A DNA stretch of 64,000 bases from Candidatus Didemnitutus sp. Lineage in GTDB: Bacteria; Verrucomicrobiota; Verrucomicrobiia; Opitutales; Opitutaceae. The first letter of the stretch is position 1; each line of letters opens with the position of its first letter. The notes beneath the pieces were generated by a model that saw only the letters and a program-made list of their open reading frames with translations, made no database searches and was not told the origin of the DNA. Location: NCBI GenBank assembly GCA_017991595.1, contig JAGOQJ010000003.1, forward strand, positions 62,001 through 126,000. Reading direction: 5' to 3'. The translations under genes and the position numbers were made by a program. Positions 22,591-52,264 of this stretch are shown one piece after another.

Positions 22591-23952
22591 TCAACGCCCT
22601 TTGCCGAAGAGCATCACGTGGATAGTCTTCAGGGTGATCGACGCATCGAGCACGAAGGAGAAGAAGCGGATGTAGTAGAGGTCGTATTCCAACTTTCGGA
22701 GCGTGTCCTCGAGGTTGGCGCCGTAGGGATAATTCACCTGCGCCCAGCCGGTGATGCCGGGCTTCACGAGATGGCGGAAGTGGTAGCAGGGGATCTGGCG
22801 CTCGTATTGCTCCACCAAACGCACCCATTCGGCGCGCGGGCCGATGATGCTCATGTCGCCGCGGAAGACGTTCCAGAGTTGCGGCACTTCGTCGAGCCGG
22901 GTCGCGCGCAGGAAGCGGCCGATCGGAGTGATGCGGTCGTCGTCGGGCCGCGTGTAGGGGTCGCCGGCGTGCTGCACGCGCATGCTGCGGAGCTTGTAGG
23001 CCTCGAAGAGCACGCGGTTGCGGCCGACACGGGTCTGATGGAAGAACACCGGTCCGCGGTCGGTCAGCCAGATGGCGGCGGCGATGAAAGGGAAGAACGG
23101 AGCGAAGAGCAGCAGGCCGACCGCGGAAAAAAGGATGTCGCTGAGCCGTTTCAGCCGCTCGAACACCGGCTCGCGTGCGATCTGGAAGCCCTCTTGGAAA
23201 AGCCAGGTTTGGTTGAGCCGGTAGAGCGGGATTTTCCGCCAATAGACTTGGTGGAAAAGCTCCAAGGTGTAGGTCGGCAGGCCGGAGAAACTGAGCTCGA
23301 CGAGCCGTTGCGCGATTGCCGGCGGCAACTCCTGCGAGGATTCGCGGAGGATGATCGCATCGATGCGGCCTTCGTATTCCTGCAGCAATTGCAGCACGTC
23401 GCCACTCGTCGGCGGGTTGCTTGTCCCGGCCGTTGCCGCAACGGGTTGGTGCGTGGCGTTCAGCACGCCTTGGTTCATGCCGTGCTTGCGGCATTCCTCG
23501 GTGAAGGCCTCGTAATTCTGCGGACTGCCGAGAAAGAGGAAGAAGTGGCGCTGCATGCGCGCCAGCTGCCGCTGGTAGAACATCCGGCGGTAGCCGAGCG
23601 AGAGCGGGATCACGGCGAGGTAGGAAACCGCGGTCACGAGACGGCTGCTTTGCAGTTGGAACCCGCCCGGGATGAAGGCGTAGGTGAGCAGCAGCGTCAC
23701 GAGCAACACGCCCGCCTGCGCGATGACGTGCAAGCTGGCGTAGGTGATCGACATCATGTCCGTGCGGCTGCTGTAGCCGTCGATCAGATAGACACCGAGC
23801 CAGTGGATGAGCACGGGCAGGAACAGCGGCGAGATGATCGGGTGACTCAGGTCGACGAGTCCGCGGGCCCACGCCACGAGGTTGAACGACGCGATCACCG
23901 CCAGCGCATCGAGCGCGATGAGGGCGAGCGTGATCTTGCGGGCGGAAGTCAT
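22591..23952 (-). CDS. Polyprenyl-phosphate hexose-1-phosphate transferase (WcaJ/EpsE-type initiating sugar transferase)
   Basis: 453 residues from the ATG at 23952. Four or five N-terminal TM helices are followed by a soluble CoA-binding-like region. The C-terminal bacterial sugar transferase domain starts RLSDILFSAVGLLLFAPFFP, with FEAYKLRSMR, FLRATRLDEVPQLWNVFRGD, MSIIGPRAEW and KPGITGWAQV. These PHPT enzymes load the first sugar phosphate onto undecaprenyl phosphate, which starts repeat-unit synthesis at the inner membrane. It is the promoter-distal end of the 28-gene glycan locus. Confidence 0.93.
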   Translation of the reverse strand: MTSARKITLALIALDALAVIASFNLVAWARGLVDLSHPIISPLFLPVLIHWLGVYLIDGYSSRTDMMSITYASLHVIAQAGVLLVTLLLTYAFIPGGFQLQSSRLVTAVSYLAVIPLSLGYRRMFYQRQLARMQRHFFLFLGSPQNYEAFTEECRKHGMNQGVLNATHQPVAATAGTSNPPTSGDVLQLLQEYEGRIDAIILRESSQELPPAIAQRLVELSFSGLPTYTLELFHQVYWRKIPLYRLNQTWLFQEGFQIAREPVFERLKRLSDILFSAVGLLLFAPFFPFIAAAIWLTDRGPVFFHQTRVGRNRVLFEAYKLRSMRVQHAGDPYTRPDDDRITPIGRFLRATRLDEVPQLWNVFRGDMSIIGPRAEWVRLVEQYERQIPCYHFRHLVKPGITGWAQVNYPYGANLEDTLRKLEYDLYYIRFFSFVLDASITLKTIHVMLFGKGR

Positions 23953-23969
23953 GAGCAGTGGGCTGGGAA

Positions 23970-25205
23970 TCAACTAAGCGCTCCGGCACTGGGGCTGGCA
24001 ATGTCGTTCCGGTCGCCGCCGCCGGCTTCGTCGAGCAGTCGTTCCCAAGCCGCCAGCACATGCGCGAAGCGGAAATGCTTCTCGTAAGCCGCACGCGCGG
24101 CCCGTGCCAGCGCGGCGTGCCGCTCCGGTTGGGCGCGCCACTCCGAGAGTGTCGCGGCGAGCGCCTGCGCCTCGCCCGGCGCGAAGACGGCGCCGCACCC
24201 TTCGGCGCGGAGGAATCCGGCGAGCGCACTCTGCGGCGGCCCGACGAAGGCGATCGGTTTGCCCGCGGCCAGTGCGCCGGCGACCTTGCTGGGGTGGACC
24301 AGCGATTCGAAACCGGGCAGCAGCGTCACCACATGGGCGTCCACGGAACCGAGCGAGGCCGCCAGTTGCGCGCGCGGGCGGGCGGGCAGCAGTTGCACAT
24401 TCGCGAGGCCGTCATGGTGCACGGCCGCGGCGACCTCGCCGTGGCGGGCGCCGGTGCCGATGAAGACGAAACGAAATTCCGGTCGGTCGCGCAGCTGGGC
24501 GGCGGCGCCGATCACAGTGGCGAATTCATGGACCCGGCCGAGATTGCCCGAGTAGGCGGCGACGAATTTCCCGTCCCACCCGCTCGCCGACCGCAGCGCC
24601 TCCACCTCCGAGCGGGACGGCAACGTCTCCATCTCGCGTGGCGCCCAGTTCGGCAGGACGCGCACGCGTTCCGGTGCGACGCCGCGCCCGCACACCAGTC
24701 CGGCCATGTCGTCGCCCACGGGCACGCAAAAAGCCGAGGCGCGCCACGCGCGGTCGCGTGCGTAGCGCAGCGGTAACAGAAAAGGTTTCCACGCCGCGCC
24801 GGCATGCTGCCAAGCGATCTCCGGATAAATGTCCTGCACCCACTGCACCACGCGAGCGCCTTGCGCGAGCGTGCGGCCGGTGAGTGCGGCGGCGAGCATG
24901 GGCGGATCGGTCTTGATCACGACGCAGTCGCCGGGACGGGCGAGCCGGCTGATGAGTCGCCGGGCGGCGCGCAGGTAACTCCAGTAACTCGCCACGCGCG
25001 ACCGCAGGCCGCGCACGGAATTGTCGCCGCCTGTGCGATGGACTGTCACACCGGCGTGTTCCGCCGGGCCGCAGCCGCCAGCGATGACGTGCACCTCCCG
25101 ACCTCGCTGCACCAGCGCCGGGGCGAGATCGCTGAGCAATTGCGCCGTGGCCGACTCGTCGGGCCAGTAGACGCGGTTGGCGAAGATGACCCTCGGTTTA
25201 TCCAC
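23970..25205 (-). CDS. Glycosyltransferase family 4, WbuB-like
   Basis: 411 residues from a GTG at 25205 (VDKPRVIFANRVYWPDESA), chosen because it begins at the first beta strand and overlaps the upstream stop by only 8 bp. The next ATG choices (25295 or 25310) give a low-complexity leader inside the upstream gene. GT-B features: an early ESATAQLLSDLAPAL helix, VVQWVQDIYPEIAW, YSGNLGRVHEF and the nucleotide-binding HPSKVAGALAAGKP. This resembles WbuB/colanic-type transferases acting on the lipid-linked second sugar, which fits next to a PHPT gene. The sugar is unknown. Confidence 0.85.
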   Translation of the reverse strand: MDKPRVIFANRVYWPDESATAQLLSDLAPALVQRGREVHVIAGGCGPAEHAGVTVHRTGGDNSVRGLRSRVASYWSYLRAARRLISRLARPGDCVVIKTDPPMLAAALTGRTLAQGARVVQWVQDIYPEIAWQHAGAAWKPFLLPLRYARDRAWRASAFCVPVGDDMAGLVCGRGVAPERVRVLPNWAPREMETLPSRSEVEALRSASGWDGKFVAAYSGNLGRVHEFATVIGAAAQLRDRPEFRFVFIGTGARHGEVAAAVHHDGLANVQLLPARPRAQLAASLGSVDAHVVTLLPGFESLVHPSKVAGALAAGKPIAFVGPPQSALAGFLRAEGCGAVFAPGEAQALAATLSEWRAQPERHAALARAARAAYEKHFRFAHVLAAWERLLDEAGGGDRNDIASPSAGALS

Positions 25206-26037
25206 GGGAACGTTGCCGGGCCTCGCGCAGCGCCTCGGCGGCGAAGCGTTCGTAGCGTGCGAGCAGGCGGCAGTAGCCCCATGCGGCTCGTCCATCGAGC
25301 GCGCCGCCACGCAGGAAATACTGATAGATGAAACGCAGCAGCGGCCGCGCGGGCAGGGCGTAGCTGAGCTGCTTCAAGGCGCGGCGCCGGCCGAGCGATC
25401 CGCCGCGCCAGAGCTGGGCGAACGGCAGTTGCGGTTGCGCGAGAAACGCCACCGCTTCCTCGCGGGCGTAGCGGCGATGCTTGGCCTCCCATTCGGCGAG
25501 GTCAGGCACCGAGATGTCGTGCAGGTAGGTGCCTTGCAGGTAACCCATGCGCATCCCCGGTGCCTCGCGTTGGCCGTGGCCGGCCTGGACAAATTCGAAT
25601 TTCCCTGCCCGCACGCAGCGCGCCTGCCACGCGGGAAAATCCGTGCAGCGCCGCAGCCAATGGCCGTGGAACATCATCCGCGGTGCCGCGTAATAGCCGT
25701 CGCAGGGCGCGTCGGCTGGCAGCGTCGCGCATTCGCGCACGAGTTCCGGCGTCATCGTCTCGTCGGCGTCGAGGTGGAACACCCACGGATGGCGGAACTG
25801 GCCCGCGGCCATGCCGAAATTGCGTTGCTGCGCGAAATCACGAAACGGATTCACCAGCACGCGGGCGCCGGCCGCGCGGGCAATCTCCACCGTGCGGTCG
25901 GTCGAGCCGGAATCGAGCACCACGATGTCGTCGCACTCCGCTACGGAGCGGAGGCAGGCAGGCAGGCGCGCCTCCTCGTTTTTCGTCAGGATCAGCACCG
26001 AGAGCGGCAGACGGGGACGGGCGGGATCGGGCATCAT
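25198..26037 (-). CDS. Glycosyltransferase family 2 (WaaE/KdtX-like)
   Basis: 279 residues from the ATG at 26037, which forms an ATGA overlap with the upstream ligase-like gene. SVLILTKNEEARLPACLRSV, DDIVVLDSGSTDRTVEIA and FHLDADETMTPEL (with the D-x-D metal site) are typical of the KdtX/WaaE branch that glycosylates LPS inner core. A conserved late block, GTYLHDISVPDLAEWEAKHRRY, also matches this branch. The enzyme is cytoplasmic with possible membrane association (FIYQYFLRGG). The substrate is not proven. Confidence 0.87.
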   Translation of the reverse strand: MMPDPARPRLPLSVLILTKNEEARLPACLRSVAECDDIVVLDSGSTDRTVEIARAAGARVLVNPFRDFAQQRNFGMAAGQFRHPWVFHLDADETMTPELVRECATLPADAPCDGYYAAPRMMFHGHWLRRCTDFPAWQARCVRAGKFEFVQAGHGQREAPGMRMGYLQGTYLHDISVPDLAEWEAKHRRYAREEAVAFLAQPQLPFAQLWRGGSLGRRRALKQLSYALPARPLLRFIYQYFLRGGALDGRAAWGYCRLLARYERFAAEALREARQRSRG

Positions 26038-27512
26038 GGTGCGGGGGCGCTGCGGCCTCGGTCGAGACGGGCGTAGGCAGCGGCGACGTAAAGGCTGGTC
26101 CAAAACAGCATCATCACCGCAGGATTCGCGAAGGGAAACTCCACCCAAGCATAGAGCAGCACAATGCCGCAGCCGAACAGGAGCTGGATCGGCAGGCGCG
26201 ATTCCGAGCGCAGACGCCAGACGCCCCACAGCGGCGCCAAGCCCAGCAGCAGCAGCGCGCCGGTGCCGGCGAAGCCGACCTCGGCCAGCGCCTGCAACCA
26301 GTCGTTGTGCGCCTCACGGTAGTGCGGGGCGCCGATCCATCGCTCGGGCACGCGTTGGGAATTGAAGATGCGGAAAACGTCGCCGTAGGTCTCGAGGCCC
26401 CAGCCGTAGACGGGTTTGCGCGCGGCCATCTCCCACGTGTCGCGGTAGAGCGTGAGGCGCGAGTTCATCGTGTCCTCGGTGCGGATGCGTTCGAGCTGGC
26501 GCGCGGTCAACTCGGTGCGCGCGATGATGACGTCGCGGCTCAGGTAACCTGCGCCGCCGAGCGTGAGAGCGAACGCCAGCACGATGCCCGCGACGGGCAG
26601 CAGCACGGATTCGTGGTGCGCCCGGCGCGAGCGCACGACGTGACCGAGGAATTGCGCCACGGCGATCGCAAGCACGAAGAGCATGAGCACCGTCGTCGAG
26701 CGCGAGCCGCTGAGCGGCGCGGTCGCCGCCATGAACGCGATGGCCACGGCGCCGAGCAGCACCGGCGAATGCCAGAAATCGCGGTGACCGCCGCGCCGCA
26801 GGGAGTGGAAGAGGAGGCCGAGGCAGATCGTGACGTTCAGCACCGTGAACGCGCCCCAGTGGTTGTGATAGACGAAGGTCGAGAAAAAGTAGGGCTGGGG
26901 CGTCTTGACCGCGCCGAGCCAGATGCCTTTCGCGCCGATCAACTTTTGGAGCGTGCCGAAGACCGCGAGCAGCAGCGCGTTGGCCGCCAGCAGCGCGAGC
27001 AGCCGACGCAGCAATCGCCGGTGCCGCAGCGCGAGGAAGGCGTTGAAGCACGAGATGACGATGACGTTGAACTGCCAGAGTTCGCGCAGCGTCAGGTCGG
27101 GTCGCGCGGAGCTCGGCAGCCAAGGCCAGCGCGGATCCGTGTGCACCACCAGTTGCTCGCCTTCATACATGACCAGTCGCGTGCTCGGATTGAAGACGGA
27201 GATGAGCACCAGCGAGTCGAAGATCAGCAGCGGCCACAGGTGCCGCCACGGTGAAGGGAAGCCTGCGCCGCTCGCGCGTTGTCGTCCCCAGATGGCGAAG
27301 AAAAGCGGGATGCCAAGCGGACCCCAGATGAGGATCGCGAGTCGTGCGCCTTCGGATTGGCCGCCGAACCACCACGAGGTGCCGACCAGCAGCGTGCCGA
27401 GGTGGAACAGCACCAGATTCGCCCAGAGCCGCATCGAGTCGTGCGGATCGCGGCGGGAGAGACCGTCGGGGCGTGGCTCGCTGCCCCGTGAGATCGGATC
27501 GGGTTCAGCCAT
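26034..27512 (-). CDS. O-antigen ligase family membrane protein (WaaL-like)
   Basis: 492 residues from the ATG at 27512 (MAEPDPISRGSEPR), with about ten TM helices. The large loop and Wzy_C block contain VYHNHWGAFTVLNVTICLG, ATAPLSGSRSTTVLMLF, PVYGWGLETYGDVFRIF and the family histidine in HYREAHNDWLQALAEVG. Ligases and polymerases of this superfamily join polyprenol-linked glycans to lipid A core or to each other in the periplasm. It overlaps its neighbours by 8 bp (upstream) and 4 bp (downstream). Whether it is a ligase or a Wzy polymerase cannot be told from sequence alone. Confidence 0.87.
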   Translation of the reverse strand: MAEPDPISRGSEPRPDGLSRRDPHDSMRLWANLVLFHLGTLLVGTSWWFGGQSEGARLAILIWGPLGIPLFFAIWGRQRASGAGFPSPWRHLWPLLIFDSLVLISVFNPSTRLVMYEGEQLVVHTDPRWPWLPSSARPDLTLRELWQFNVIVISCFNAFLALRHRRLLRRLLALLAANALLLAVFGTLQKLIGAKGIWLGAVKTPQPYFFSTFVYHNHWGAFTVLNVTICLGLLFHSLRRGGHRDFWHSPVLLGAVAIAFMAATAPLSGSRSTTVLMLFVLAIAVAQFLGHVVRSRRAHHESVLLPVAGIVLAFALTLGGAGYLSRDVIIARTELTARQLERIRTEDTMNSRLTLYRDTWEMAARKPVYGWGLETYGDVFRIFNSQRVPERWIGAPHYREAHNDWLQALAEVGFAGTGALLLLGLAPLWGVWRLRSESRLPIQLLFGCGIVLLYAWVEFPFANPAVMMLFWTSLYVAAAYARLDRGRSAPAP

Positions 27513-28626
27513 GGGGCAGGGTCCGGTAAAAATCGAGGAGCAGGCGCGCCGCGCGTTCCCAAGTGAACGCTTCCGCCACCCACTGCCGCCCACGCTCGCC
27601 CGCCGCGCGCAGCTCGGCCGGTGCGAGCGCCAGCATGCGGTCCAGCGCTGCGCTGTAGTTTTCCCACGCGACGCAATCGCCGGCGCCGCGGGTCGCGAGT
27701 TCGCGCCAAGGCGTTGTGTCCGTCACGAGAGCCGGCACGCCGGCCGCCAACGCTTCCGCGATCACGAGCCCGAAATTCTCCGAATGCGACGGCAACAGGA
27801 ACAGCGAGGCGACGGCGAAGGGCGGCAACACGCCGCGCCCGTCAAACGCGGCGGCGTGACCGGCGAGCCCGGCGCTCGCGAGCCAGCCGTTGACCTCTTC
27901 CACGCCATACTCCTCGGGCACGCCGGCGAGCAGCAGGAACCAATCGCCACGCGGGCGCGACGCCCACTGCTCGATCAACTCCCGCACGCGCTTCTTCCGG
28001 TGATAACGGGAATAGAAAAGCGCGACCGGACGCGCACCGGCAGCCGGACAGAGTCGGGCCCACGTCGCGCGGGCTTCCGCCAACGCCTCCGCGCCCGGCA
28101 ACGCGACGGCGTTGGGCGAGACGCAGATGGGCTGTTTGAAGCCGAGCCCGCGGATGTCGTCCGCCTCCTCCGCGCTGGTGGCGTGCCAGCCGGCGGCGCC
28201 GGCGAAGGCTCCCGGGTGCACGAGCAGCTGCGCGAGTCGCTTGCGGACGCGGCGATGCCGGTAAGCCCAGCCGCTCATCATGCCGCGCGGCGAGATCACG
28301 AGCGGGCGCTGGAGCCGGCGCGCAGTTTGGTGTGCGTAATGGAGCGTGCGCAGCCACAGTGCGTGATGGTGCACGCAGTCGTAGGAAGCTTGGGCGAGGT
28401 GCGCGGCGAGGCCGGCCGACGGACACAGCGCACGGGGAAATCCGCGCGGGAAAACGAGCAGCTGCGCGCGGTCGCCGCCCGTCTGCATCGCGTGTCCGGC
28501 TTCGAGCGTGGTCAGCAGATCCGTGTTGGCGCCCGCCGCCGCCATGGCGTTGGCGAGGGCGCGCACGGACTTGGAGGGCCCGCCATGACGATCCTCGAGG
28601 CTGGGCACAATGTGGCAGACGCGCAT
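27505..28626 (-). CDS. Glycosyltransferase family 4
   Basis: 373 residues from the ATG at 28626 (MRVCHIVPSLEDRHGGPSKS), a typical GT4 N terminus with the GGPSKS acceptor loop. The C-terminal Rossmann half has ALFYSRYHRKKRVRELIEQW and the E-x7-E type signature HSENFGLVIAEALAAGVPAL that binds the NDP-sugar. It is cytoplasmic, peripheral to the membrane. A longer in-frame extension to 29127 is antisense-free shadow coding and overlaps the acyltransferase gene, so it was rejected. Sugar specificity is not predictable. Confidence 0.9.
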   Translation of the reverse strand: MRVCHIVPSLEDRHGGPSKSVRALANAMAAAGANTDLLTTLEAGHAMQTGGDRAQLLVFPRGFPRALCPSAGLAAHLAQASYDCVHHHALWLRTLHYAHQTARRLQRPLVISPRGMMSGWAYRHRRVRKRLAQLLVHPGAFAGAAGWHATSAEEADDIRGLGFKQPICVSPNAVALPGAEALAEARATWARLCPAAGARPVALFYSRYHRKKRVRELIEQWASRPRGDWFLLLAGVPEEYGVEEVNGWLASAGLAGHAAAFDGRGVLPPFAVASLFLLPSHSENFGLVIAEALAAGVPALVTDTTPWRELATRGAGDCVAWENYSAALDRMLALAPAELRAAGERGRQWVAEAFTWERAARLLLDFYRTLPHG

Positions 28627-28634
28627 GGACAGGC

Positions 28635-29198
28635 TCAAACCGGCTGCGGTCGGGGCTTCAGCGGGCGACAGGGATTGCCGGCGCAGATCATGCGCGCGGG
28701 CTGGTCCTTCACCACGACGGCACGGGCGCCGATCACGGCGAGTTCGCCCACGGTCACGCCGGGGCCGACAAACACGTCGGCACCGAGCCAGGCATTGCGG
28801 CCGATGGTGATCGGACGGGTGACGAGCGGCATCGACCAGACTTGGAAATCGTGCGTGCCGGAGCAGAGGTGGCAGTGCTGGCTGACGTTGGCGCCGTATT
28901 CGAGGCGGATGGGCGCGAGGTTGTAGACGTTGACCCACGGACCGAGCATCGCGCGCGGTGCGAGCGACAGCCGCCACGGGAAGGTGATGCGCACCGTCGG
29001 GAAGATGACGACCTGGCCGGGCGCCGGGATGTCCGCGCCGAACCACCGCAGCAGCCGCGCGCGGAAGCCGTGCAGCGGCCGCGGGCTCCAGCGGAAGAGC
29101 GTCGATTGAACAATCAACCACAACCACCGTCGCAGCACTTCGACGCGCGGGTAAGGCGTCACACAGTCGCGTCCGAGGTAAGGGGCTTCCGGTGTCAT
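28635..29198 (-). CDS. Hexapeptide-repeat acyltransferase (WcaF-like)
   Basis: 187 residues from the ATG at 29198. The C-terminal two thirds form left-handed beta-helix hexads (VNVYNLAPIRLEYGANVSQH, ITIGRNAWLGADVFVGPGVT, VGELAVIGARAVVVKD). The catalytic-loop histidine is in LCSGTHDFQ. It closely follows the pattern of WcaF/putative colanic acid acetyltransferases, which O-acetylate a sugar on the lipid-linked oligosaccharide. It lies 8 bp upstream of the GT4 gene at 27505. The acyl group and the target hydroxyl are inferred only. Confidence 0.88.
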   Translation of the reverse strand: MTPEAPYLGRDCVTPYPRVEVLRRWLWLIVQSTLFRWSPRPLHGFRARLLRWFGADIPAPGQVVIFPTVRITFPWRLSLAPRAMLGPWVNVYNLAPIRLEYGANVSQHCHLCSGTHDFQVWSMPLVTRPITIGRNAWLGADVFVGPGVTVGELAVIGARAVVVKDQPARMICAGNPCRPLKPRPQPV

Positions 29199-29224
29199 TG
29201 GCGGCAGGCGAGCAAAGGAAAACG

Positions 29225-34404: not shown

Positions 34405-34415
34405 CGGGCGGGAGA

Positions 34416-37895: not shown

Positions 37896-37896
37896 G

Positions 37897-43117: not shown

Positions 43118-43680
43118 CAACGGGGGGCGCCTTCGCGCCAGCCACGCACGATTGCCGGCGTGCCATAGGCGATCGCGCCCGGCGGCAGATCCTTCGTCAC
43201 GACCGACCCGGCGCCGACGATGCAACCGTCGCCGATGGTGACGCCGCCGAGCACGGTGACGCCGGCGCCGAGCCAGACGTCGCTTCCGATGCGGGTCGGC
43301 AGCAGGGTGTCGGGCTGCGAGCGAATCGGCGTGCCGAAAGGGGCGAGCGCGTGATTCGACGACAGGATGCGACAATGCATCGCGATGAGCGCGTGCTCGC
43401 CGATCGTGACGCCGCCGTGGCCGTAGATGACGACGTGCGGGCCGATGATGACGTTCGCGTCCACCCGGATCGAGCCGCCGTAGGTATCGAAGACCACGCC
43501 GTCCTCCAGCATGCAACCCGCCCCGATCGCGATCTCCCCGCGGCCCTGCCGGTTGAAGGTGCGGTGGAGGTTGACGCTTTGACCAATCTTCACGTGGTCG
43601 CCGAGCATGATGCCCGAGGCGCGGAGACGGAAGGCGCGCCAGTGTTTGAGCCAATAGCGGAAGAGGAGGGTTTGTTGCAT
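43117..43680 (-). CDS. Hexapeptide-repeat acyltransferase (LbH, WbbJ/LacA-like)
   Basis: 187 residues. Left-handed beta-helix hexads run through most of the chain: GEIAIGAGCMLEDGVVF, IRVDANVIIGPHVVIYGHGG, IGSDVWLGAGVTVLGGVTIG and CIVGAGSVVTKDLPPGAIAY. The active-site His loop is ILSSNHALAPFGTPI. It looks like a sugar O-acetyltransferase using acetyl-CoA. It sits between two GT2 genes, 4 bp after the one at 43685. It is the second such acyltransferase in the locus (the other is at 28635). Confidence 0.88.
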   Translation of the reverse strand: MQQTLLFRYWLKHWRAFRLRASGIMLGDHVKIGQSVNLHRTFNRQGRGEIAIGAGCMLEDGVVFDTYGGSIRVDANVIIGPHVVIYGHGGVTIGEHALIAMHCRILSSNHALAPFGTPIRSQPDTLLPTRIGSDVWLGAGVTVLGGVTIGDGCIVGAGSVVTKDLPPGAIAYGTPAIVRGWREGAPR

Positions 43681-45553: not shown

Positions 45554-45557
45554 GGGA

Positions 45558-46565
45558 TCAGTTTTCCAGCAGCGGCCAACTCAGGAGCATGCGCGGGTTG
45601 TTGGCCCCATCGAGGTAGTGCAGCGCGGCGCGAGTCGGGTGGCGCGCCTCTGCTTCATCCGGGAAAACCTGGTAGGCGTCGCTCAGCTCGGCGGCGAGAT
45701 GCGCGCCGCACAACACCGCCACGAGCGCCTGCTCATGGTAAAACGAGTAACCATGGCGCGCGAGCAGGCGGGTGGAGACGGTCTCGAGATAATCCCAGTC
45801 GAGCTGCGCAGGGCGGAAGGCGAAGCAACCGGAATTCACGCGTGTGGGCACCGCGACACCCGCCAGGTCCGAGAGCTGGGCGGCGGTGACGCCGTAGGAC
45901 TCGGTGCAATCGCGGAAGTAGAACGGCCGGCCGTGGTCGAAGTGATGGAGCAACTCCGCGGGCGGACGATGCAGCAACACGTCCGTGTCGACGACGATGC
46001 GCGGACCGTCGTCGGTGAGGAAGGTGTCGGTGAGTTTGCGCAGGTGAAAATAGGCCAGCCGCAACCGCCGCAGCACCGGGTAACGGGTGGCCGGCAGCTG
46101 CGCGTCGAGGAGGCGTTCGGTGCTCGCGGCGTCTTGGATCGCGATGCGTCCGCCGCCGCGGAGCAGCCGCGTGCGTGCATCGGCGTCGAGCGAGCTGTCG
46201 TCGATCAGCGTGAAGCTCACCGGGCGCCCGACGTGGCGCCGCCAGGACTTCATCGCGTAAAGCGTCTGCACGACGTAGTCGGAGCCGGTGAGCAGCACCA
46301 CGTCGAGGGACTGTGGGTCGTTCGGCACGGCGGGCAGCGTCGCGAAGGAGAGGCGACGCTCAGCGGCGCGGAGTTCGCGCCGGCGCGTCCAACGGCGCCG
46401 CAGCGGCGAGCCCGGGACTAACCACTGGGGCCATTCGTGCCGCGCGAGATAGAGGAGGCGGCCCGGCGTGAGGGGCGGCCGGCGCGGTCCGCGCACCGGT
46501 GGCATCGCGGCAAGGGCGCGAGCGCGCTCGTCGGCGGTGGGCGGGTCGAGGCGGGGCGGCGTCAT
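45558..46565 (-). CDS. Uncharacterised GT-A-like protein, paralogue B
   Basis: 335 residues (MTPPRLDPPTADERARAL). No named family is recognised. It matches the gene at 38544 along its length: DVVLLTGSDYVVQTLYAMKS, FTLIDDSSLDADARTRLL, FHLRKLTDTFLTDDGPRIVV, then VVDTDVLLHRPPAELL (D-x-D), FRDCTESYGVTAAQL and LDWDYLETVSTRLLARHGYS with YHEQALVAVLCGA. A basic, proline-rich N-terminal leader of about 50 residues could touch the membrane. It overlaps the GT4 gene at 46562 by 4 bp. The glycosyltransferase role is inferred. Confidence 0.65.
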   Translation of the reverse strand: MTPPRLDPPTADERARALAAMPPVRGPRRPPLTPGRLLYLARHEWPQWLVPGSPLRRRWTRRRELRAAERRLSFATLPAVPNDPQSLDVVLLTGSDYVVQTLYAMKSWRRHVGRPVSFTLIDDSSLDADARTRLLRGGGRIAIQDAASTERLLDAQLPATRYPVLRRLRLAYFHLRKLTDTFLTDDGPRIVVDTDVLLHRPPAELLHHFDHGRPFYFRDCTESYGVTAAQLSDLAGVAVPTRVNSGCFAFRPAQLDWDYLETVSTRLLARHGYSFYHEQALVAVLCGAHLAAELSDAYQVFPDEAEARHPTRAALHYLDGANNPRMLLSWPLLEN

Positions 46566-47713
46566 CGGGACTGGGCCAGCGCGAGCATCCGTTCCGCGAA
46601 CACGGCGGCGGGATCGGCCGGCACGCGGGCCCGCACGGCGCGCGCCGCGGCGGCGCCCAACTCGGGCCAGCGGGTGCGCGCGGCGTAGGCGCGTTCGAGC
46701 GCGTCAGCCACGGCGTCGATGGTCGGCGCGGCGGCGAGAAAACCGGTTTCGCCTTCCGTCACGAATTCCGCGTGGCCGGCGACCGCCGTCACGATACACG
46801 GGCGGCCGCAAAGCATGGCCTCGACGATGGCGAGCGGCATGCCTTCGTAGCGCGAAGGGAGGAGCAGCGCGTGGTGGTCGCGCCAGATGCCCACGACATC
46901 CGGCACATGGCCGGCGAAGCGGACGCGTCCTTCGAGCCCGAGGCGGCGCGCGAGGAGCTGCGTGCCTTCGGTGGCGCGGCCGGTGCCGAAGAACGTGAGC
47001 GTCACGTCGCGTTCGCGCCATTCAGGGCGGGCCAACGCCTCAAGCGCGAGGTCGCAGCCCTTGGCTTCTGGATCGAGCCGGCCGACGCAGGCGAGGCGCA
47101 GCGGCTCAGCGGTGGCCGGCCACGGCGGAGCAGCGTCGTAGGGCACGCGAAAGGGATTCCACACGATCTCGGTGTGCGAGTGCGCGCAAACGAGCTGCCG
47201 CTCGACGAGGCGGCGGTTGCCGTCGCTGACGAAATACACGGCGCGCGCGGCCTCGGTCAGCGCGGCGGCGCGGCGGCGGTGTTCGTCGGCCGGCCACCAG
47301 TGCTCGGCGGCGCAGTTATAGGCGAGCGCGTAGGGCAGGCCGCGTCGCGCGAGCGGTTCGCACAGGTCGGCGTTCGGGAATCCGCCGGCCAGCGAGAAGA
47401 CCGTCAGGTCCGGCCTGAGTTCGGCGATGACGTCGCAGGCGTGCGGAGCGGGCCGGGAAAGGCCGAGGCGCCAGGACAGTCGCTGGCGCACGAGGGCAGG
47501 GACGGTGAGCGCGCGCGGGATGGGGCGGCGGTGCAGCTGCAGACCTTGCGCGACGAGCCGGCGCAGCGGCTCGGCCTCGGCGTCGCCCCAGTCGATGGTG
47601 CTGGCGTGCACCTCGTGTCCTTGCCGCAGCAGGCGCTCCGCCGTGCCGGCCCACAGATCCTCGCTGCCGCCCCAGGGCGAGCCATCCATGTTGGAGACGA
47701 AGGCGAATTTCAT
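46562..47713 (-). CDS. Glycosyltransferase family 4
   Basis: 383 residues (MKFAFVSNMDGSPWGGSEDL), with the N-terminal GGSEDLW acceptor loop. Donor domain: RLACVGRLDPEAKGCDLALE, LTFFGTGRATEGTQLLARRL, and SRYEGMPLAIVEAMLCGRPC, the E-x7-E signature. It is a cytoplasmic retaining transferase. It overlaps the adjacent gene by 4 bp and lies 28 bp after the GT2 gene at 47742. Confidence 0.9.
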   Translation of the reverse strand: MKFAFVSNMDGSPWGGSEDLWAGTAERLLRQGHEVHASTIDWGDAEAEPLRRLVAQGLQLHRRPIPRALTVPALVRQRLSWRLGLSRPAPHACDVIAELRPDLTVFSLAGGFPNADLCEPLARRGLPYALAYNCAAEHWWPADEHRRRAAALTEAARAVYFVSDGNRRLVERQLVCAHSHTEIVWNPFRVPYDAAPPWPATAEPLRLACVGRLDPEAKGCDLALEALARPEWRERDVTLTFFGTGRATEGTQLLARRLGLEGRVRFAGHVPDVVGIWRDHHALLLPSRYEGMPLAIVEAMLCGRPCIVTAVAGHAEFVTEGETGFLAAAPTIDAVADALERAYAARTRWPELGAAAARAVRARVPADPAAVFAERMLALAQSR

Positions 47714-47741
47714 CGCAGCAGGTTCAGGCTAGGATCGGGCG

Positions 47742-48746
47742 TCAATGCGCCGGGAAATCGCGCGGCAGCGTTGCGGGCACTTGGCGGGCGGCGGCGGCGG
47801 TGAATTGCCGACCGAGGCGCTGGCCCAGCAGGTGCAGGAAACCCGCGCGCCGGCCCATCATCGCCCAGAACACGCGCCGGTTGGCGACAAAGGCTTCGCG
47901 GTCCGCCGGTGCGAGGAAGCGTCCGGCCTGCTCGAAGGCCAGCAGGCCGAGTTGGCGGCGCATGCGACGCTCGTCGAGCGAGGGACGCTGCGGCAGCTCA
48001 TGCAGGAAAAGCTGGTGATAGTCCGCGAGGTTGCCGGCCTTGCGCACGAGCCGACTGGTGTCGTTGTTGCGGTGGAGCCGGTAGGCGGCCAGGACCTGCC
48101 GGGTGACCGCGCCGCCGCCGTGCTGCAGCGCACGCAGCCACATCTCCCAATCGGCCACGTGCGGGAAGCGCGGGTCGAATCCGCCGTGGCGCTCGTAGAA
48201 GTCCCGGCGCATGACGATCGTCGGGGTGACGAAGGGATTCGTGTAGAAGGTGTCGTCGCTCAGCGCGAGACGCCCGTCGTTCGGGAAGCCGGGCGACACC
48301 GTGTAAGCGACACCCTGCTCGTCCATGACGAGCGAGCGTGTTGCATAAAAAGCGCAGTCGGGCTGGGCGTCGGCGAGCCGTTCGATGGTGGGGTAGAATC
48401 CCGGCAGCACGGCATCGTCGCCGTGGAGGATATGCACGAGATGGCCGCGCGAGCGGGCGATGCAGGCGTTAAAATTGGCGATCGCGCCGACGTTGGCCGG
48501 GTGACGGTAGAACGTGACGCGCCCGTCCGGGGCCAGTTCGCGGACGACGGCGGCCGGGTCGTCGCGGGTGGAGCAGTCGTCGATGACCTCGACCTGCATC
48601 TGGTCGGCGCCGGGGTCCTGCGCCAGCACCGAGCGGAGCGTCTCGCGCAGGTAGTCCGCGCAATTGTAGGTCGGGATCATCACCGACCAGCGCGGGCGCG
48701 CGGTGGTGGCGGGGACGGGGGCGATGGCGGGTGGTTTCAGCTCCAT
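47742..48746 (-). CDS. Glycosyltransferase family 2
   Basis: 334 residues from the ATG at 48746 (MELKPPAIAPVPATTARPRW), overlapping the flavoprotein gene by 10 bp. GT-A core: WSVMIPTYNCADYLRETLRS, VEVIDDCSTRDDPAAV, and LVHILHGDDAVLPGFYPTIE (G-D-D in the D-x-D position). The acceptor side is GFDPRFPHVADWEMWLRALQ. A basic C-terminal region follows. Repeat-unit assembly is the likely role. The long ORF that extends to 49562 is a shadow. Confidence 0.9.
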   Translation of the reverse strand: MELKPPAIAPVPATTARPRWSVMIPTYNCADYLRETLRSVLAQDPGADQMQVEVIDDCSTRDDPAAVVRELAPDGRVTFYRHPANVGAIANFNACIARSRGHLVHILHGDDAVLPGFYPTIERLADAQPDCAFYATRSLVMDEQGVAYTVSPGFPNDGRLALSDDTFYTNPFVTPTIVMRRDFYERHGGFDPRFPHVADWEMWLRALQHGGGAVTRQVLAAYRLHRNNDTSRLVRKAGNLADYHQLFLHELPQRPSLDERRMRRQLGLLAFEQAGRFLAPADREAFVANRRVFWAMMGRRAGFLHLLGQRLGRQFTAAAARQVPATLPRDFPAH

Positions 48747-50146
48747 CGTTCGAAGGGCCAGGGGTGACGGCGGCTGTTGGCGTGGTTGGGGTCGCGGAGC
48801 GTGATTTCCTCGCGACCGTGGAGCAGACGCTCGACGACCTCGACGCCCTGCATGAAGGAGTGGTCTTGGTTGCTGACCTCGTATTTCCAAGCGCCGAAGC
48901 GTCCGCGCGAATAGATGTCCTGCTGTTCGAAGGCGGGCAGGATTTGCGCCAGCGCGCGGTCGCGGTGCAGGCCGGGGGTCGGATAGCCGTAGGCGGCGCG
49001 ATAGCTCCAGGTGGAGACGAGCTCGTCCCGGCTGGCGATGAGGCCGGTGGCGATCGCGCCATCGATGACCTGATTGAGCAGACGCGCGTGGTCGACAGGC
49101 TTGTCGGGCGACTCGGAAACCTCCGCCATGAGCGACCAGTGGCGCGAGGGATCGGGGACGTTCTGGGGCGAGTAGTTGCTGAAGACCGTGACGCGGTAGA
49201 ACGGGCAGTTGTCCTCGGGGAAATACATCCAGCATTTCGTCTTCAACTCCGCGCGCGGCTGGCCGCGCAGGCCGAGGCCGAAGATGTTGGAGGAGGAGTA
49301 GAGCAGGCCTTCCTCGGCGACGGCATCGAATTCGTGGCGGCCGGTGAGGCGGATGAGTTCGCGCAGCGGCAGGGTCGAGACGAGGCGGTCGTAGGCGAAG
49401 ACCTCGCCGCGCTCCGTGTGGACCTCGCGACGCGTGGGGTCGATGCGGACGATCTTCGTGCCGAGGCGTAGCCGGTCGGCGGGCAGACGGGCGGCGCAGG
49501 CGCGCCAGATGGCACCGGTGCCGCCGCGGAGCGGGAACTGGAAGGTGTTGTTCGGGCCCCACGAGAGATCGTCGCGGGCGTGGACGAGATTTTGCAGCAC
49601 GCGACCGAGGTCGGTGACGGCGACGCGTTCGCCCACCCAGACGGCGTTGAGTTTCTCGGGCGGATAGGCCCAGACCTTGAAATTATAGGGCCGCAGGAAC
49701 ACCTCGGCGATGCCCGGGCCGAAATTGGCATCGATCCACTGGCCGAAATCGGCCGGGCGCGGACGCGGGTGGCGCGTGATCTCCACCAAGCCCTGAAGAC
49801 AGCGGTCGAGGTCGGCCGGCGGCAAGCGACGGATGTTGTTCTGGAACGGGTAGGGGATGAAACGATCGCGCATCCAGACCCACGATTCGCGCTGGTGACG
49901 CAGCCAGCCGTCGGCCCCGAGGAACTCGGTCATCGCGCGATCGAAGTAGTCGTAGTGGGAGAATTGGACGTGGCCGCCGATGTCCCACGTGAAGCCGGCT
50001 TCGTCGACAAACGAGGCGGAGAGACCGCCGGCGTGCGGGGCGCCTTCGAGCAACAACCAGTCGGTTTGCCCGGTTTCCTGCAGTCGCCAAGCGGCACCGA
50101 GACCGGTGGGACCGGCCCCGAGGATGAGAAGGGGGATGCGCGTCAT
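48737..50146 (-). CDS. FAD-dependent UDP-galactopyranose mutase-like / protoporphyrinogen-oxidase-like protein
   Basis: 469 residues from the ATG at 50146 (MTRIPLLILGAGPTGLGAAW), with the dinucleotide fold at residues 8-20 and LLEGAPHAGGLSAS closing it. The segment FLRPYNFKVWAYPPEKLNAV resembles the P-Y-N-x-K-x-W element of UDP-galactopyranose mutases. F-x-F-P-L-R-G-G-T-G-A-I-W is the flavin motif of the wider amine-oxidase/Glf superfamily. It could convert a UDP-hexopyranose to the furanose form, or desaturate a sugar. It overlaps Wzt by 4 bp and GT2 by 10 bp, so it belongs to the operon. Confidence 0.75.
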   Translation of the reverse strand: MTRIPLLILGAGPTGLGAAWRLQETGQTDWLLLEGAPHAGGLSASFVDEAGFTWDIGGHVQFSHYDYFDRAMTEFLGADGWLRHQRESWVWMRDRFIPYPFQNNIRRLPPADLDRCLQGLVEITRHPRPRPADFGQWIDANFGPGIAEVFLRPYNFKVWAYPPEKLNAVWVGERVAVTDLGRVLQNLVHARDDLSWGPNNTFQFPLRGGTGAIWRACAARLPADRLRLGTKIVRIDPTRREVHTERGEVFAYDRLVSTLPLRELIRLTGRHEFDAVAEEGLLYSSSNIFGLGLRGQPRAELKTKCWMYFPEDNCPFYRVTVFSNYSPQNVPDPSRHWSLMAEVSESPDKPVDHARLLNQVIDGAIATGLIASRDELVSTWSYRAAYGYPTPGLHRDRALAQILPAFEQQDIYSRGRFGAWKYEVSNQDHSFMQGVEVVERLLHGREEITLRDPNHANSRRHPWPFERWS

Positions 50147-51411
50147 GAGAGGCGGCGTGGGTCTTGGTGATGAGCCCGCAGCAGGAAGGAGCCTTGACCG
50201 TCCTGCTGTTGGAATTGCCATCCAGCGTGATCGTTCTGCCGGGGCGTGATTTGGAAGCGCAACGCGTGCTCCAGGTAGTCGTGGAAGCGCACGCCGCTGT
50301 CCGCGAGCATCAGGTCCATGGTGTAGCGACCGGCCGCCAGCTGAGGCAGCTGCAACTCGAAGCGGAATTCATACTTTCCCGGAGCCAGCCGGTGATCGCG
50401 CCCCTCGACGAGGCCGCCGGCGTGCAGCGCGAGCGGCAAGCCATCCGGACCGCGCAGCAGACACTCGACCGCGATCCGGGTCTCGCGCTGCACCTCCGCC
50501 TTGAGGCACACGATCACCGGATCGCGGGACAGGAGTTCGTTGGTGGCATTCTCGTGGACGAGCAGGGTCGCATCGCTAATCCGCGCGTCGCCCGTGCCTT
50601 CGAGGCGCCGCGCCTGCGAGAAGCCGTGGCCTTCTGCGCCGGCCAATCCGAGGTATTCGGCGACGACGTCGGCCACTGGGCCAGTGCGCGACACGCTGCC
50701 CTGCTTGAGCAGGATCGCGCGGGAACACAGCTCGCGGACGGCGCCCATCTGGTGGCTGACAAACAGCACGGTGCGTCCCTCGTTGCGCGAGACCTCGCGC
50801 ATCTTGCCGAGGCACTTCTGCTGAAACTGCACGTCGCCCACGGCCAGCACCTCGTCGACGATGAGGATCTCGGGCTCGAGGTGCGCGGCGACGGCGAAGG
50901 CGAGCCGCACATACATGCCGCTGCTGTAGCGCTTCACCGGCGTGTCGAGGAAGCGCTCCACCTCGGCGAAGGCGACGATCTCGTCGAACTTCCGCCGGAT
51001 CTCCTCGCGGCGCATGCCGAGGATGGCGCCGTTGAGGAAGATGTTCTCGCGCCCGCTGAGCTCGGGATGGAACCCCGTGCCCACCTCGAGCAGGCTGGCG
51101 ACGCGGCCGTGGAGGGCGATGCGGCCCTGCGTGGGCTCGGTGATGCGCGAGAGGATCTTGAGCAGCGTGGACTTGCCGGCGCCGTTGCGGCCGATGATGC
51201 CCACGACCTCGCCGGGTTGCACCTCGAAGCTCACATCGCGCAGCGCCCAGAATTCCTCCTCCTCGGTCTGCTGCGCACGGAGGCGGGAGAACAGCGCACG
51301 CACGCCGCCCGTCAGGGCGTCGCGCAGCGTGTCGGGACGTTTCTCGTGGTCGATGACGTAGCGTTTCGAGACGTGGTCGACACGGATGGCGGGCAAAGCG
51401 GAAGCACTCAT
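50143..51411 (-). CDS. Polysaccharide ABC transporter ATP-binding protein (Wzt-like) with C-terminal carbohydrate-binding domain
   Basis: 422 residues from the ATG at 51411 (MSASALPAIRVDHVSKRYVI). Walker A is GRNGAGKS at about 74-81, the Q-loop region is RVASLLEVGTGFHPELSG, the signature is YSSGMYVRLAFAVA (the Wzt variant), and Walker B is ILIVDEVLAVGD. After about residue 260 an extra ~150-residue domain with beta-rich character follows, as in Wzt proteins that recognise the modified chain end before export. It pairs with the permease 10 bp upstream. It energises export of lipid-linked polysaccharide across the inner membrane. Confidence 0.93.
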   Translation of the reverse strand: MSASALPAIRVDHVSKRYVIDHEKRPDTLRDALTGGVRALFSRLRAQQTEEEEFWALRDVSFEVQPGEVVGIIGRNGAGKSTLLKILSRITEPTQGRIALHGRVASLLEVGTGFHPELSGRENIFLNGAILGMRREEIRRKFDEIVAFAEVERFLDTPVKRYSSGMYVRLAFAVAAHLEPEILIVDEVLAVGDVQFQQKCLGKMREVSRNEGRTVLFVSHQMGAVRELCSRAILLKQGSVSRTGPVADVVAEYLGLAGAEGHGFSQARRLEGTGDARISDATLLVHENATNELLSRDPVIVCLKAEVQRETRIAVECLLRGPDGLPLALHAGGLVEGRDHRLAPGKYEFRFELQLPQLAAGRYTMDLMLADSGVRFHDYLEHALRFQITPRQNDHAGWQFQQQDGQGSFLLRAHHQDPRRLS

Positions 51412-51421
51412 GGGCGCGGGG

Positions 51422-52264
51422 TCAGATGATGTCCGCAAATTTTTTCTCCGTGCGGCGGAAGAACCACACGCCGCTCCCGACAAGGAGCAGGATCGCCACC
51501 GCCGAACTGCTGACGCTCCAGGCCGAGAGCTGATGCTGGCCGCCGAGGAGGCACCAGCGGAAGCCGTCGATCACACCCGTGAGTGGGTTCAGCGACATCA
51601 GGTCGCGCCAGTTGGGGAAGAAGTCCGTGCGGAAACCCACCGGCGAGACGAAGATGCCGACCTGCAGCACGAAGGGCACGATGAAGCGGAAGTCGCGATA
51701 CTTCACCGTCAGCGCCGTCATCCACAACCCCGTGCCGAAAGCCACGCCCAGCGCCATGAGCACGAAGCCCGGGAGCAGGAGCCAGTGCCACGTCGGCCAT
51801 TGACCATACCACACGCTGAGCACCGCGAACATCGCCAGCACCACCGCGAAGTCCACCAACGCGACCGCGAGCGACGAGAGCGGCACGATCATGCGGGGAA
51901 AATACACCTTCGAGACCAGGCTCGAGTTGGAGACGATGCTGGCGCTGGAGCCGGAGAGCGCGTTGGAGAAGAGCTGCCAGGCCATCACACCCGACAGCAC
52001 CAGCAACGGGTAGGGCACGCCGCCCGCCGGCATCTTGGCCAGATTCTGGAAGATGAAGACAAAGATCGCCGTCGTGATCGCCGGTTGGATGAACGCCCAC
52101 GCCACGCCCAGCGCGGCCTGCTTGTAGCGCACCTTCACGTCGCGCCAGGCGAGGAAGCCGAGCAATTCGCGGTAGCGCCAGACGTCGCGCCAGTAGTGGC
52201 GCTCCGTGCGCCCGGCCTCGAGGATCAGGCCTGTGTCGTCGAGGGTTTGGTCCGGCGAGGGCAT
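51422..52264 (-). CDS. Polysaccharide ABC transporter permease (Wzm-like)
   Basis: 280 residues (MPSPDQTLDDTGLILEAGRT). ABC2-type membrane protein with about six TM helices, and the amphipathic coupling start YRELLGFLAWRDVKVRYKQA followed by ALGVAWAFIQPAITTAIFVF. Other family elements are SKVYFPRMIVPLSSLAVALV and LQVGIFVSPVGFRTDFFPNW. It forms the translocation channel with the Wzt partner. A clear SD site precedes it. It is the promoter-proximal gene of the 28-gene minus-strand locus. Confidence 0.93.
   Translation of the reverse strand: MPSPDQTLDDTGLILEAGRTERHYWRDVWRYRELLGFLAWRDVKVRYKQAALGVAWAFIQPAITTAIFVFIFQNLAKMPAGGVPYPLLVLSGVMAWQLFSNALSGSSASIVSNSSLVSKVYFPRMIVPLSSLAVALVDFAVVLAMFAVLSVWYGQWPTWHWLLLPGFVLMALGVAFGTGLWMTALTVKYRDFRFIVPFVLQVGIFVSPVGFRTDFFPNWRDLMSLNPLTGVIDGFRWCLLGGQHQLSAWSVSSSAVAILLLVGSGVWFFRRTEKKFADII

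Follow-up and report, generated by a model that had tools for sequence, protein, structure and literature searches.

Described assembly routes closest to the locus

In the textbook schemes of polysaccharide assembly, the Wzx/Wzy route exports single units whereas the Wzm/Wzt route exports finished chains. To our knowledge, the Wzt_C transporters characterised to date export finished, end-capped chains (the O8/O9a model), and we know of no Wzy in ABC-transporter-dependent O-antigen loci of the E. coli O8/O9a type. The locus described here is a block of 28 genes (g01–g28) in the genome of an environmental bacterium of the Opitutaceae (Verrucomicrobiota), contained in a window of 64,000 nucleotides, the whole stretch of DNA analysed. 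It resembles the ABC-transporter-dependent loci in its Wzm/Wzt pair with a Wzt_C domain, its methyltransferases and its WaaL-type ligase, but differs in that a Wzy-type protein is constant in this locus family. With Wzx/Wzy-dependent O-antigen loci it shares a PHPT start, a variable Wzy-type protein and a conserved ligase; however, the block has no Wzx or Wzz match, and carries Wzm/Wzt instead.

The slg clusters of Geobacillus stearothermophilus NRS 2004/3a and Paenibacillus alvei also hold a PHPT, Wzm/Wzt and a Wzy_C transferase (WsaP/WsfP, Wzm/Wzt, WsaB/WsfB) together with glycosyltransferases in one locus, and their central genes are strain-specific, as the middle of the present block is variable; in contrast to the block, their gene list shows no Wzy-type polymerase beside the transferase (PMC2943079). 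Their glycan is passed to an S-layer protein in Gram-positive bacteria, whereas the present host is an LPS-making Gram-negative with 18 putative glycosyltransferases in the block. The statement in the preliminary description that Wzy- and ABC-dependent parts are normally encoded separately is therefore too strong if read as never together, since PHPT, Wzm/Wzt and Wzy_C form the known slg layout (PMC2943079).

In the portions of the literature searched, no combined Wzy and Wzm/Wzt locus is described. Synechococcus elongatus is reported to lack a wzx or wzy orthologue (PMC4390846), and the texts covered on cyanobacterial Wzm/Wzt (KpsMT) loci describe neither this locus nor a Wzy partner for it. 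Burkholderia cenocepacia has a 'hybrid' O-antigen locus, presented as hybrid by origin and without wzy (PMC5462993), a survey of Oxalobacteraceae reports wzm/wzt with wzy absent (PMC9834719), and the Leptospira rfb locus is described as Wzx/Wzy (PMC13111663), each as far as the sections consulted go. The combination of PHPT, Wzm/Wzt and ligase thus has precedent in the slg clusters (PMC2943079), while for a constant Wzy-type partner replacing Wzx none was found in the literature searched.

Layout and gene content of the block

The 28 minus-strand genes in a row that had been read from the sequence are recovered by a codon-based gene caller, and span exactly 22591–52264 (Table 1) with a coding fraction of 99%. 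The 27 junctions, read earlier as mostly overlaps or tiny gaps, consist of 12 overlaps, 7 gaps of 0–10 nt and 8 gaps of more than 10 nt, the largest being 70. The minus-strand run extends past the block, with two further genes on the downstream side, at 20019 and 21132, and one upstream, at 52449. The gene at 21132 encodes a pyridine-nucleotide-disulphide oxidoreductase, here named lipoamide dehydrogenase, and that at 52449 a DJ-1/PfpI protein. Promoter-like sites in two scans number 0 and 1 (0.9 and 1.2 expected) and are uninformative. Terminator-like sites number 7 at 36000–53200 (7.7 expected) and 17 at 20000–36500 (9.6 expected, sd 3.1); the latter are partly overlapping copies, mostly on the other strand, and are likewise uninformative.

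The PHPT, the WaaL-fold ligase and the Wzy-type protein lie towards one end of the block, and Wzt/Wzm at the other. Glycosyltransferase Pfam families are matched by 15 genes, counting g11, which falls below the curated cut-off. Another three (g15, g18 and g23) lack a Pfam assignment, with sub-threshold matches or none at E up to 1, and show DxD-type motifs by eye, giving the 18 putative glycosyltransferases previously estimated. The remaining content noted at that stage is all found, namely two hexapeptide acyltransferases, two methyltransferases, a flavin mutase-like enzyme (the UDP-galactopyranose mutase), the PHPT, a WaaL-like protein (Wzy_C ligase type), a Wzy-like protein and an ABC exporter (Wzm/Wzt). 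The block has a single initiator, g01. Only g01, g04, g08 and g28 are polytopic in a simple hydropathy scan, in agreement with the earlier claim that the block contains no Wzx. The Pfam matches of the 28 genes include no Wzz/PCP chain-length regulator family at E≤0.01, and no Wza family.

Table 1. Genes of the block, with window coordinates and the matches supporting each assignment
Gene	Product	Coordinates	Strand	Evidence
g28	Wzm-type ABC permease	51422..52264	-	PF01061 69.3 bits (cut-off 26.9); NF050109 (galactan-export permease Wzm/RfbD) sub-threshold, E 1.5e-16
g27	Wzt-type ATPase with C-terminal glycan-binding domain	50143..51396	-	PF00005 above cut-off; PF14524 Wzt_C 42.6 bits (cut-off 30.4); 8dku E 6e-73, residues 46-382
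g26	UDP-galactopyranose mutase, makes UDP-Galf	48737..50146	-	4dsg E 2e-152; further UGM chains E ~1e-136
g25	GT2 glycosyltransferase	47742..48746	-	PF00535
g24	GT4 glycosyltransferase	46562..47713	-	PF13692
g23	Putative GT, g15 paralogue	45558..46565	-	DxD by eye, no Pfam; second match (30-44%) of relatives' g15-type proteins
g22	GT2	44588..45553	-	PF00535
g21	GT2	43685..44581	-	PF00535
g20	Hexapeptide acyltransferase	43117..43680	-	PF00132
g19	GT2, in several distant loci	42167..43117	-	PF00535; matches in cyanobacteria and Lysobacterales MAG
g18	Putative GT	41355..42170	-	DxD by eye; no Pfam at cut-off
g17	O-methyltransferase (CmcI/rhamnosyl type)	40586..41344	-	PF13578 and PF04989 above cut-off
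g16	GT2	39506..40543	-	PF00535
g15	Putative GT, in several distant loci	38544..39509	-	DxD by eye, no Pfam; matches at 40-72%
g14	Methyltransferase	37897..38544	-	PF13578
g13	GT2, in most distant loci	36921..37895	-	PF00535
g12	GT4	35665..36924	-	PF00534
g11	Probable GT4	34416..35660	-	PF13439 23.6 bits, below curated cut-off 28.5
g10	GT4-type	33079..34419	-	PF13579 above cut-off
g09	GT4, adjoins g08 in many loci	31856..33082	-	PF00534
g08	Wzy-type polytopic protein, proposed polymerase	30411..31820	-	PF14296 E 4.6e-5, 22.7 bits, below cut-off 26.6
g07	GT4	29225..30397	-	PF00534
g06	WcaF-type acetyltransferase	28635..29162	-	PF00132; NF007797 E 8e-52, slightly below its cut-off
g05	GT4	27505..28626	-	PF00534
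g04	WaaL-fold O-antigen ligase type	26034..27434	-	PF04932 E 7.9e-19, 68.3 bits (cut-off 31.7); WaaL 7tpg E 3.3e-6
g03	GT2	25198..26037	-	PF00535
g02	GT4	23970..25205	-	PF13439 and PF00534
g01	PHPT initiating phosphoglycosyltransferase	22591..23952	-	PF02397 E 5.9e-60, 202 bits (cut-off 27); TIGR03025 310.5 (cut-off 295.55)

Conservation in Opitutaceae and in distant bacteria

A search of related genomes for the whole block, proposed in the preliminary description, shows that across Opitutaceae its ends are conserved and its middle is variable. Counting the window, 120 genomes of the family yield 57 loci with g08 (two weak second g08 matches dropped). In 50 of these a closer g04 lies on the same strand at no more than 9 kb, and in 38 wzm lies on the same strand 9–27 kb away; all 38 also have g04, and wherever wzm is present it is upstream of g08. 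The 'closer' matches were picked after viewing the tables; the choice retained 60 of the 79 genomes with a g04 match and 66 of the 103 with a g28 match. Co-occurrence of g04 and g08 is nearly complete, with g08 in 55/60 genomes that have the closer g04, and that g04 in 55/56 genomes with g08. The site of the block lies between the PfpI gene and the lipoamide-dehydrogenase-type gene, and both flanks are found in 6 of 14 relatives (G001, G002, G005, G008, G016 and G036). Sixteen of the 19 g08 loci without wzm have less than 8 kb of contig remaining on that side, and one has 14.7 kb. The other two (G019 and G134, one genus) have more than 15 kb on that side and carry wzt at the head, with wzm on another contig. 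The dependence is one-way, as the closer wzm occurs without g08 in 14 genomes. Four of these were inspected: the complete chromosome of G025 has wzm/wzt at ~52%, their locus lacking both g08 and g04, G017 has wzm at 50%, G028 has a collapsed block, and G085 offers only a 4-kb contig.

The gene order of the block is found again in cyanobacteria, in Prosthecobacter and in a Lysobacterales MAG; because the arrangement recurs in other genomes, it is not due to chance. Nodosilinea, Lyngbya, Pseudanabaena and other cyanobacteria share the order wzm/wzt to g13-g11-g10-g08-g09, and part of these Wzm/Wzt loci also contain g19 and g15. In at least 9 of 16 distant records the contig with g08 also carries both Wzm and Wzt, and a tenth record has part of Wzt at its contig end. 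In the other six no Wzt was placed on the g08 contig among the matches listed (the best-scoring Wzt matches were checked); one of these, L119, is on a contig of 145.9 kb, 67 kb from its end. When the best match per window gene is kept by rule in all nine distant records with Wzm and Wzt, the order is collinear with the window in seven (tau 0.77–0.97). The exceptions are Phormidium (tau 0.35), where wzm/wzt are on the strand opposite to g08, and a Chthoniobacteraceae locus (tau 0.27).

These data bear on the suggestion that two glycans are encoded end to end, the head genes serving a Wzm/Wzt glycan and the tail genes a Wzy-type glycan. The block does contain two sets of hallmarks for export and polymerisation, and both the opposed strands in Phormidium and the tail-less wzm/wzt of the same type in G025 would fit such a division. 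However, among the 57 g08 loci none shows a tail without the exporter where the contig extends far enough (38 have wzm and 2 have wzt; the other 17 run off the contig), the block has one initiator, and the genes from wzm to beyond g08 keep a collinear order in 7/9 distant loci. With the tail co-inherited with Wzm/Wzt at one Opitutaceae site and in joint order in other phyla, the suggestion is left unsupported and is very improbable. Because the tail travels with the Wzm/Wzt head at one site, the block is one locus, not two.

Proposed export, polymerisation and ligation of the glycan

The structure model of g04 (pLDDT 84.7) has WaaL 7tpg as its sole PDB match at E≤0.001. A Wzy_C domain and a WaaL fold are both found, and the model shows g04 to be of the WaaL-fold O-antigen ligase type. 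LpxC and a KDO-transferase domain are present in the host genome, so a lipid A-core acceptor is available and is probably the one used by g04. The block is most likely a locus for an LPS O-antigen-like chain.

The Wzm permease and Wzt ATPase occur together in the block, and Wzt matches 8dku, which we take to be the structure of a Wzm-Wzt O-antigen exporter. The motor domain of the Wzt in the block is 67–76% identical in eight relatives, and its glycan-binding C-terminal domain 15–27%. A Wzt paralogue on contig C12 of the same genome (49% in the motor domain and 16% in the C-terminal domain) is excluded from the eight.

Homologues of g08 match three Wzy-type models at E≤0.01 (PF14296 in 28/51, NF046084 in 31/51 and TIGR04370 in 27/51), and matches to other models are weak and occur in one or two of the 51. 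The confident predicted model of g08 resembles no fold among PDB and viral structures, and no sequence relative was found in the PDB. Kinship with the g04 ligase was considered and rejected, as profile comparison finds none (probability 0.4%). Since the window's protein falls below the PF14296 cut-off and has no resembling structure, its putative polymerase activity is inferred from the weak matches of its family. The two g08 subfamilies require one change on the g08 tree itself, versus six on the g04 tree and seven on the g09 tree (raw counts over 35 loci, with seven genome-duplicating loci removed by hand and a subfamily cut of 33% identity chosen by the analyst). In these sequence comparisons g08 appears to behave like an exchanged polymerase.

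Based on these observations, there is close to an even chance that the locus uses a mixed assembly route for one surface glycan, with Wzm/Wzt exporting a lipid-linked glycan, g08 joining the units and g04 ligating them. From family assignments, g01 would load a sugar-1-phosphate onto undecaprenyl phosphate, and cytoplasmic glycosyltransferases, some constant and some strain-exchanged, would assemble the glycan, supplied with Galf via g26 and with methyl and acyl groups via g14, g17, g06 and g20. Wzm/Wzt would then export the lipid-linked glycan, the fast-changing Wzt C-terminal domain reading its variable end; the domain and its divergence are observed, and the role is assigned because of known Wzt_C transporters. 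In what is the least secure step, g08 would link the exported units in the periplasm, the ABC exporter replacing Wzx. Finally, g04 would transfer the product from the lipid carrier to the acceptor. The hybrid pathway proposed at the outset thus stands as to anatomy, a Wzy-type protein with an ABC exporter and, across the 32 genomes carrying the block, no PF01943 match within it; that g08 polymerises the glycan exported by Wzm/Wzt is what we infer.

An ordinary ABC route, in which the full chain is made in the cytoplasm, exported by Wzm/Wzt and ligated by g04, is a possible if doubtful reading. Here g08 would be repurposed, for example to serve as a side-sugar transferase or a second transferase in the periplasm. 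The Wzt_C domain and the methyltransferases, the similar wzm/wzt without g08 in G025 and G017, and the weak fit of g08 to Wzy models are consistent with this, as is the slg layout, which combines PHPT, Wzm/Wzt and a Wzy_C transferase and for which the published gene list shows no Wzy (PMC2943079). GT-C enzymes are known to add to chains in the periplasm, but the systems treated in that source require both a flippase and a synthase of the lipid-phosphate sugar (PMC11127046), and the block has no spare polytopic flippase candidate. The agreement of g08 homologues with three Wzy-type models also argues against repurposing.

It is improbable that a Wzx encoded elsewhere, or one too diverged for detection, instead flips the units for g08 to polymerise, with Wzm/Wzt as an extra or older exporter. 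PF01943, a family that misses divergent Wzx proteins, has no match inside the block in 32 block-bearing genomes. In addition, G076 (98% complete) has g08, g04 and wzm together yet no PF01943 match at E≤0.001, and g08 accompanies Wzm/Wzt across phyla. Consistent with a hidden flippase, the blocks of several relatives contain proteins with multiple TM segments and no assignment (of 10 scanned, 7 lack a Pfam match); short acyltransferase–acyltransferase matches aside, these are common to at most two of the loci compared. G159 has a PF01943 match on the same contig, ~10 kb beyond wzm and on the other strand, and the host genome has a non-MurJ match on contig C7. The latter reaches 34.4 bits (above cut-off) in a six-frame search, although the called gene has no Pfam match at E≤1; it sits in another polysaccharide locus and was rejected as a nearby flippase. 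A further match on contig C8 is MurJ, and was rejected as the block flippase.

More broadly, the mixed route may tentatively be put forward as a third class of polysaccharide assembly, conserved from Opitutaceae to cyanobacteria, in which Wzm/Wzt would flip the units that a Wzy-type polymerase joins in the periplasm, and the variable Wzt domain and exchanged Wzy would jointly set serotype. The same two-route pairing is kept in distant bacteria, and the mixed route may be real. A conserved Wzm/Wzt and Wzy-type locus without detectable Wzx, present also in cultured cyanobacteria (Nodosilinea), makes the idea of an ABC exporter feeding a periplasmic polymerase directly testable, and offers a common frame for the poorly understood polysaccharide loci of cyanobacteria. 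In Opitutaceae, the block provides a family-wide marker for surface-glycan type.

Gene content of the block

The window (G000:C8:62001-126000) belongs to an assembly of 2.88 Mb that is 87% complete. Records of Opitutus and other Opitutaceae are the closest named relatives, which places the host in that family (Verrucomicrobiota). A purpose-written codon-usage gene caller places exactly 28 closely packed minus-strand genes between 22591 and 52264, numbered from g01 at the PHPT end (the tail) to g28 at the Wzm end (the head). The call and the family assignments agree with the gene counts of the preliminary description.

Genes of the glycan block and the basis of their assignment
Gene	Assignment	Position	Strand	Basis
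g01	PHPT		minus	family match
g02, g03, g05, g07, g09-g13, g16, g19, g21, g22, g24, g25	glycosyltransferase families		minus	family matches; g11 below cut-off
g15, g18, g23	putative, without family assignment		minus	DxD-type motifs by eye
g06, g20	hexapeptide acyltransferases		minus	family match
g14, g17	methyltransferases		minus	family match
g26	UDP-galactopyranose mutase (UGM)	48737-50146	minus	match to solved structures
g04	O-antigen ligase family		minus	family match
g08	Wzy-like		minus	family match below cut-off
g27	Wzt		minus	family match
g28	Wzm		minus	family match

The solved structures nearest to g26 are 4dsg (E 2e-152), which we take to be the UGM of Trypanosoma cruzi, and then further UGM chains, presumably fungal. 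A search at E<=0.01 matches no other UGM structure, and g26 has no GLF match in Pfam. Judged by its sequence, g26 looks like a bacterial representative of the eukaryote-type UGM family.

Conservation and gene associations of the locus

The preliminary description had proposed looking for conservation of the whole block in related genomes. In relatives the block keeps its site; conservation is high at its ends, and the middle differs between genomes. At its wzm end it is flanked by a PfpI gene, and at its PHPT end by one of lipoamide-dehydrogenase type. Six of the 14 relatives compared (G001, G002, G005, G008, G016 and G036) show both of these neighbours, as does G019 once two comparisons are combined; the contigs or gene calls of the remainder do not show both. 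In five congeners (G001, G002, G005, G006 and G008) identity to the window is 70-77% for PHPT, 60-71% for Wzm and 57-62% for g04, and 28-39% for g08, the proposed polymerase. A further relative, G015, carries the complete locus.

Among 120 genomes of the family, drawn from a larger group, g04 matched in 79, g28 in 103 and a g08 profile in 56. Including the window there are 57 g08 loci, and in 50 of them the closer g04 (from the better-scoring set of family-wide homologues) lies on the same strand and contig. The same holds for wzm in 38 loci, all of which also contain g04 and carry wzm upstream of g08. Among the 19 loci lacking wzm, 16 have less than 8 kb of contig remaining on the wzm side and G097 has 14.7 kb. 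The two with room (L053 and L194, in G019 and G134 of one Opitutaceae genus) keep wzt as the head gene, next to PfpI, and carry a wzm homologue on a different contig. Where that side of these loci is visible, the tail was thus not found without the exporter.

The converse fails, as 14 genomes contain the closer wzm without g08. Four of these were inspected. In G025, a complete chromosome, the wzm/wzt locus lacks both g08 and g04, G017 has wzm plus a distant g04-like gene on the opposite strand, and G085 offers just a 4-kb contig. In G028 (L165, G028:C39:34426-36312) wzm and the start of wzt are followed directly by a scrap of PHPT with the middle missing, as if the block had collapsed by natural deletion or through an assembly artefact.

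Named genomes, scanned with a g08 profile, gave at least 235 confirmed loci. The best 80 of these belong mostly to Opitutaceae or other Verrucomicrobiota, with cyanobacteria and a few Proteobacteria among the rest. Sixteen distant records were examined further. Nine, the cyanobacterium Nodosilinea nodulosa PCC 7104 among them, have Wzt and Wzm on the g08 contig, on the same strand as g08 in eight and on the opposite strand in Phormidium, and a tenth (G162) has a partial Wzt at the far end of that contig. In the other six, none of the best-scoring Wzt matches could be assigned to the contig of g08. Most of the six contigs are short or end close to g08 on the wzm side, but L119 lies well inside one of 145.9 kb. 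Gene order in the nine, compared using one best match per window gene, is collinear with the window in seven (tau 0.77 to 0.97), but not in Phormidium (tau 0.35) or Chthoniobacteraceae (tau 0.27). The shared contigs and collinear orders indicate that in these lineages the Wzy-type gene regularly goes together with the ABC exporter.

The preliminary description had suggested either two glycans encoded end to end or a hybrid pathway. The absence of exporter-free tails among the visible loci speaks against two glycans, and it is very likely that the parts of the block belong together. The block is read as one locus with mixed parts, and its route is probably hybrid; Wzm/Wzt may take the place of Wzx and feed g08 in the periplasm.

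Membrane proteins and the variable glycan

A hydropathy scan identifies g01, g04, g08 and g28 as the only polytopic proteins of the block. The flippase family PF01943, which does not detect every Wzx, has matches in 32 of 33 genomes searched. The block is documented in 32 of the 33, G154 being the one without, and none of these has a PF01943 match inside it, consistent with the earlier report of no Wzx. The nearest matches on a g08 contig are that of G159, which lies ~10 kb past wzm on the opposite strand at a distance of 24 kb from g08, and that of G072, which is below cut-off and 32 kb from g08. Some relatives carry unassigned multi-TM proteins inside the block. Ten were scanned, giving three matches to Acyl_transf_3 and seven proteins without a Pfam match. 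A comparison of 14 such proteins, taken from seven genomes, found no family common to more than two loci, short acyltransferase matches aside, so none of them is a constant flippase.

The AlphaFold2 model of g04 (33 sequences, pLDDT 84.7) matches a single PDB structure at E<=0.001, namely 7tpg (E 3.3e-6), the O-antigen ligase WaaL. The g08 model (51 sequences, pLDDT 90) has no match among PDB or viral models. At E<=0.01, g08 homologues match PF14296 (28 of 51), an exosortase-associated Wzy model (31 of 51) and an oligosaccharide repeat unit polymerase model (27 of 51); the window g08 itself falls below the PF14296 cut-off. A relationship between g08 and g04 was considered and rejected, as profile comparison shows them to be unrelated. 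There are two g08 subfamilies, which change once on the g08 tree, six times on the g04 tree and seven times on the g09 tree (35 loci; raw counts). This pattern suggests that the subfamilies were exchanged between loci, which would fit strain-specific polymerases.

Comparison of the window with eight relatives gives 67-76% identity for the motor domain of Wzt and 15-27% for its C-terminal domain. Wzt C-terminal domains bind the exported glycan, as in the O8/O9a work, and this divergence therefore links the exporter to the genes that vary within its own block. Asparagine-synthase-like genes occur near wzm in G005 and G016 (L047:1423-3252, L050:4761-6659), and G001 (L029) has a GT-FkbM methyltransferase fusion and a carbamoyltransferase; all are candidate decorating or end-capping enzymes.

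Product and relation to known systems

LpxC is present in the genome, as is a KDO-transferase N-domain (10 of 10 family genomes tested), indicating that an LPS core is available. The LpxC protein (L070, on G000:C14) has 443 residues with a C-terminal part that appears FabZ-like by eye, and the adjoining gene looks LpxA-like. According to PMC3422733, which tabulates Opitutus terrae, every tested genome of Planctomycetes and Verrucomicrobia has key LPS insertion components. The 28 block genes include no Wza or Wzc family matches. With a core available, this makes an LPS O-antigen-like glycan our first choice for the predicted product, ahead of a protein-bound or free polysaccharide. Elsewhere in the genome, contig C7 carries a separate polysaccharide locus with a PF01943 match, PHPT and Wzy_C genes. 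A second ABC glycan locus (L063-L064, G000:C12:895260-900738) has a Wzm/Wzt pair adjoining a 1095-residue protein with glycosyltransferase similarity.

The combination of PHPT, Wzm/Wzt and a Wzy_C transferase seen in this block is known from slg clusters, which a review describes as known O-antigen modules combined anew (PMC2943079). In the portions of the open-licence PMC literature covered, no constant Wzy-type partner replacing Wzx in such a locus was found. The chances that g08 polymerises ABC-exported units are about even. What appears to be new is not the PHPT, exporter and transferase set, but the Wzy-type protein as a constant partner of Wzm/Wzt.
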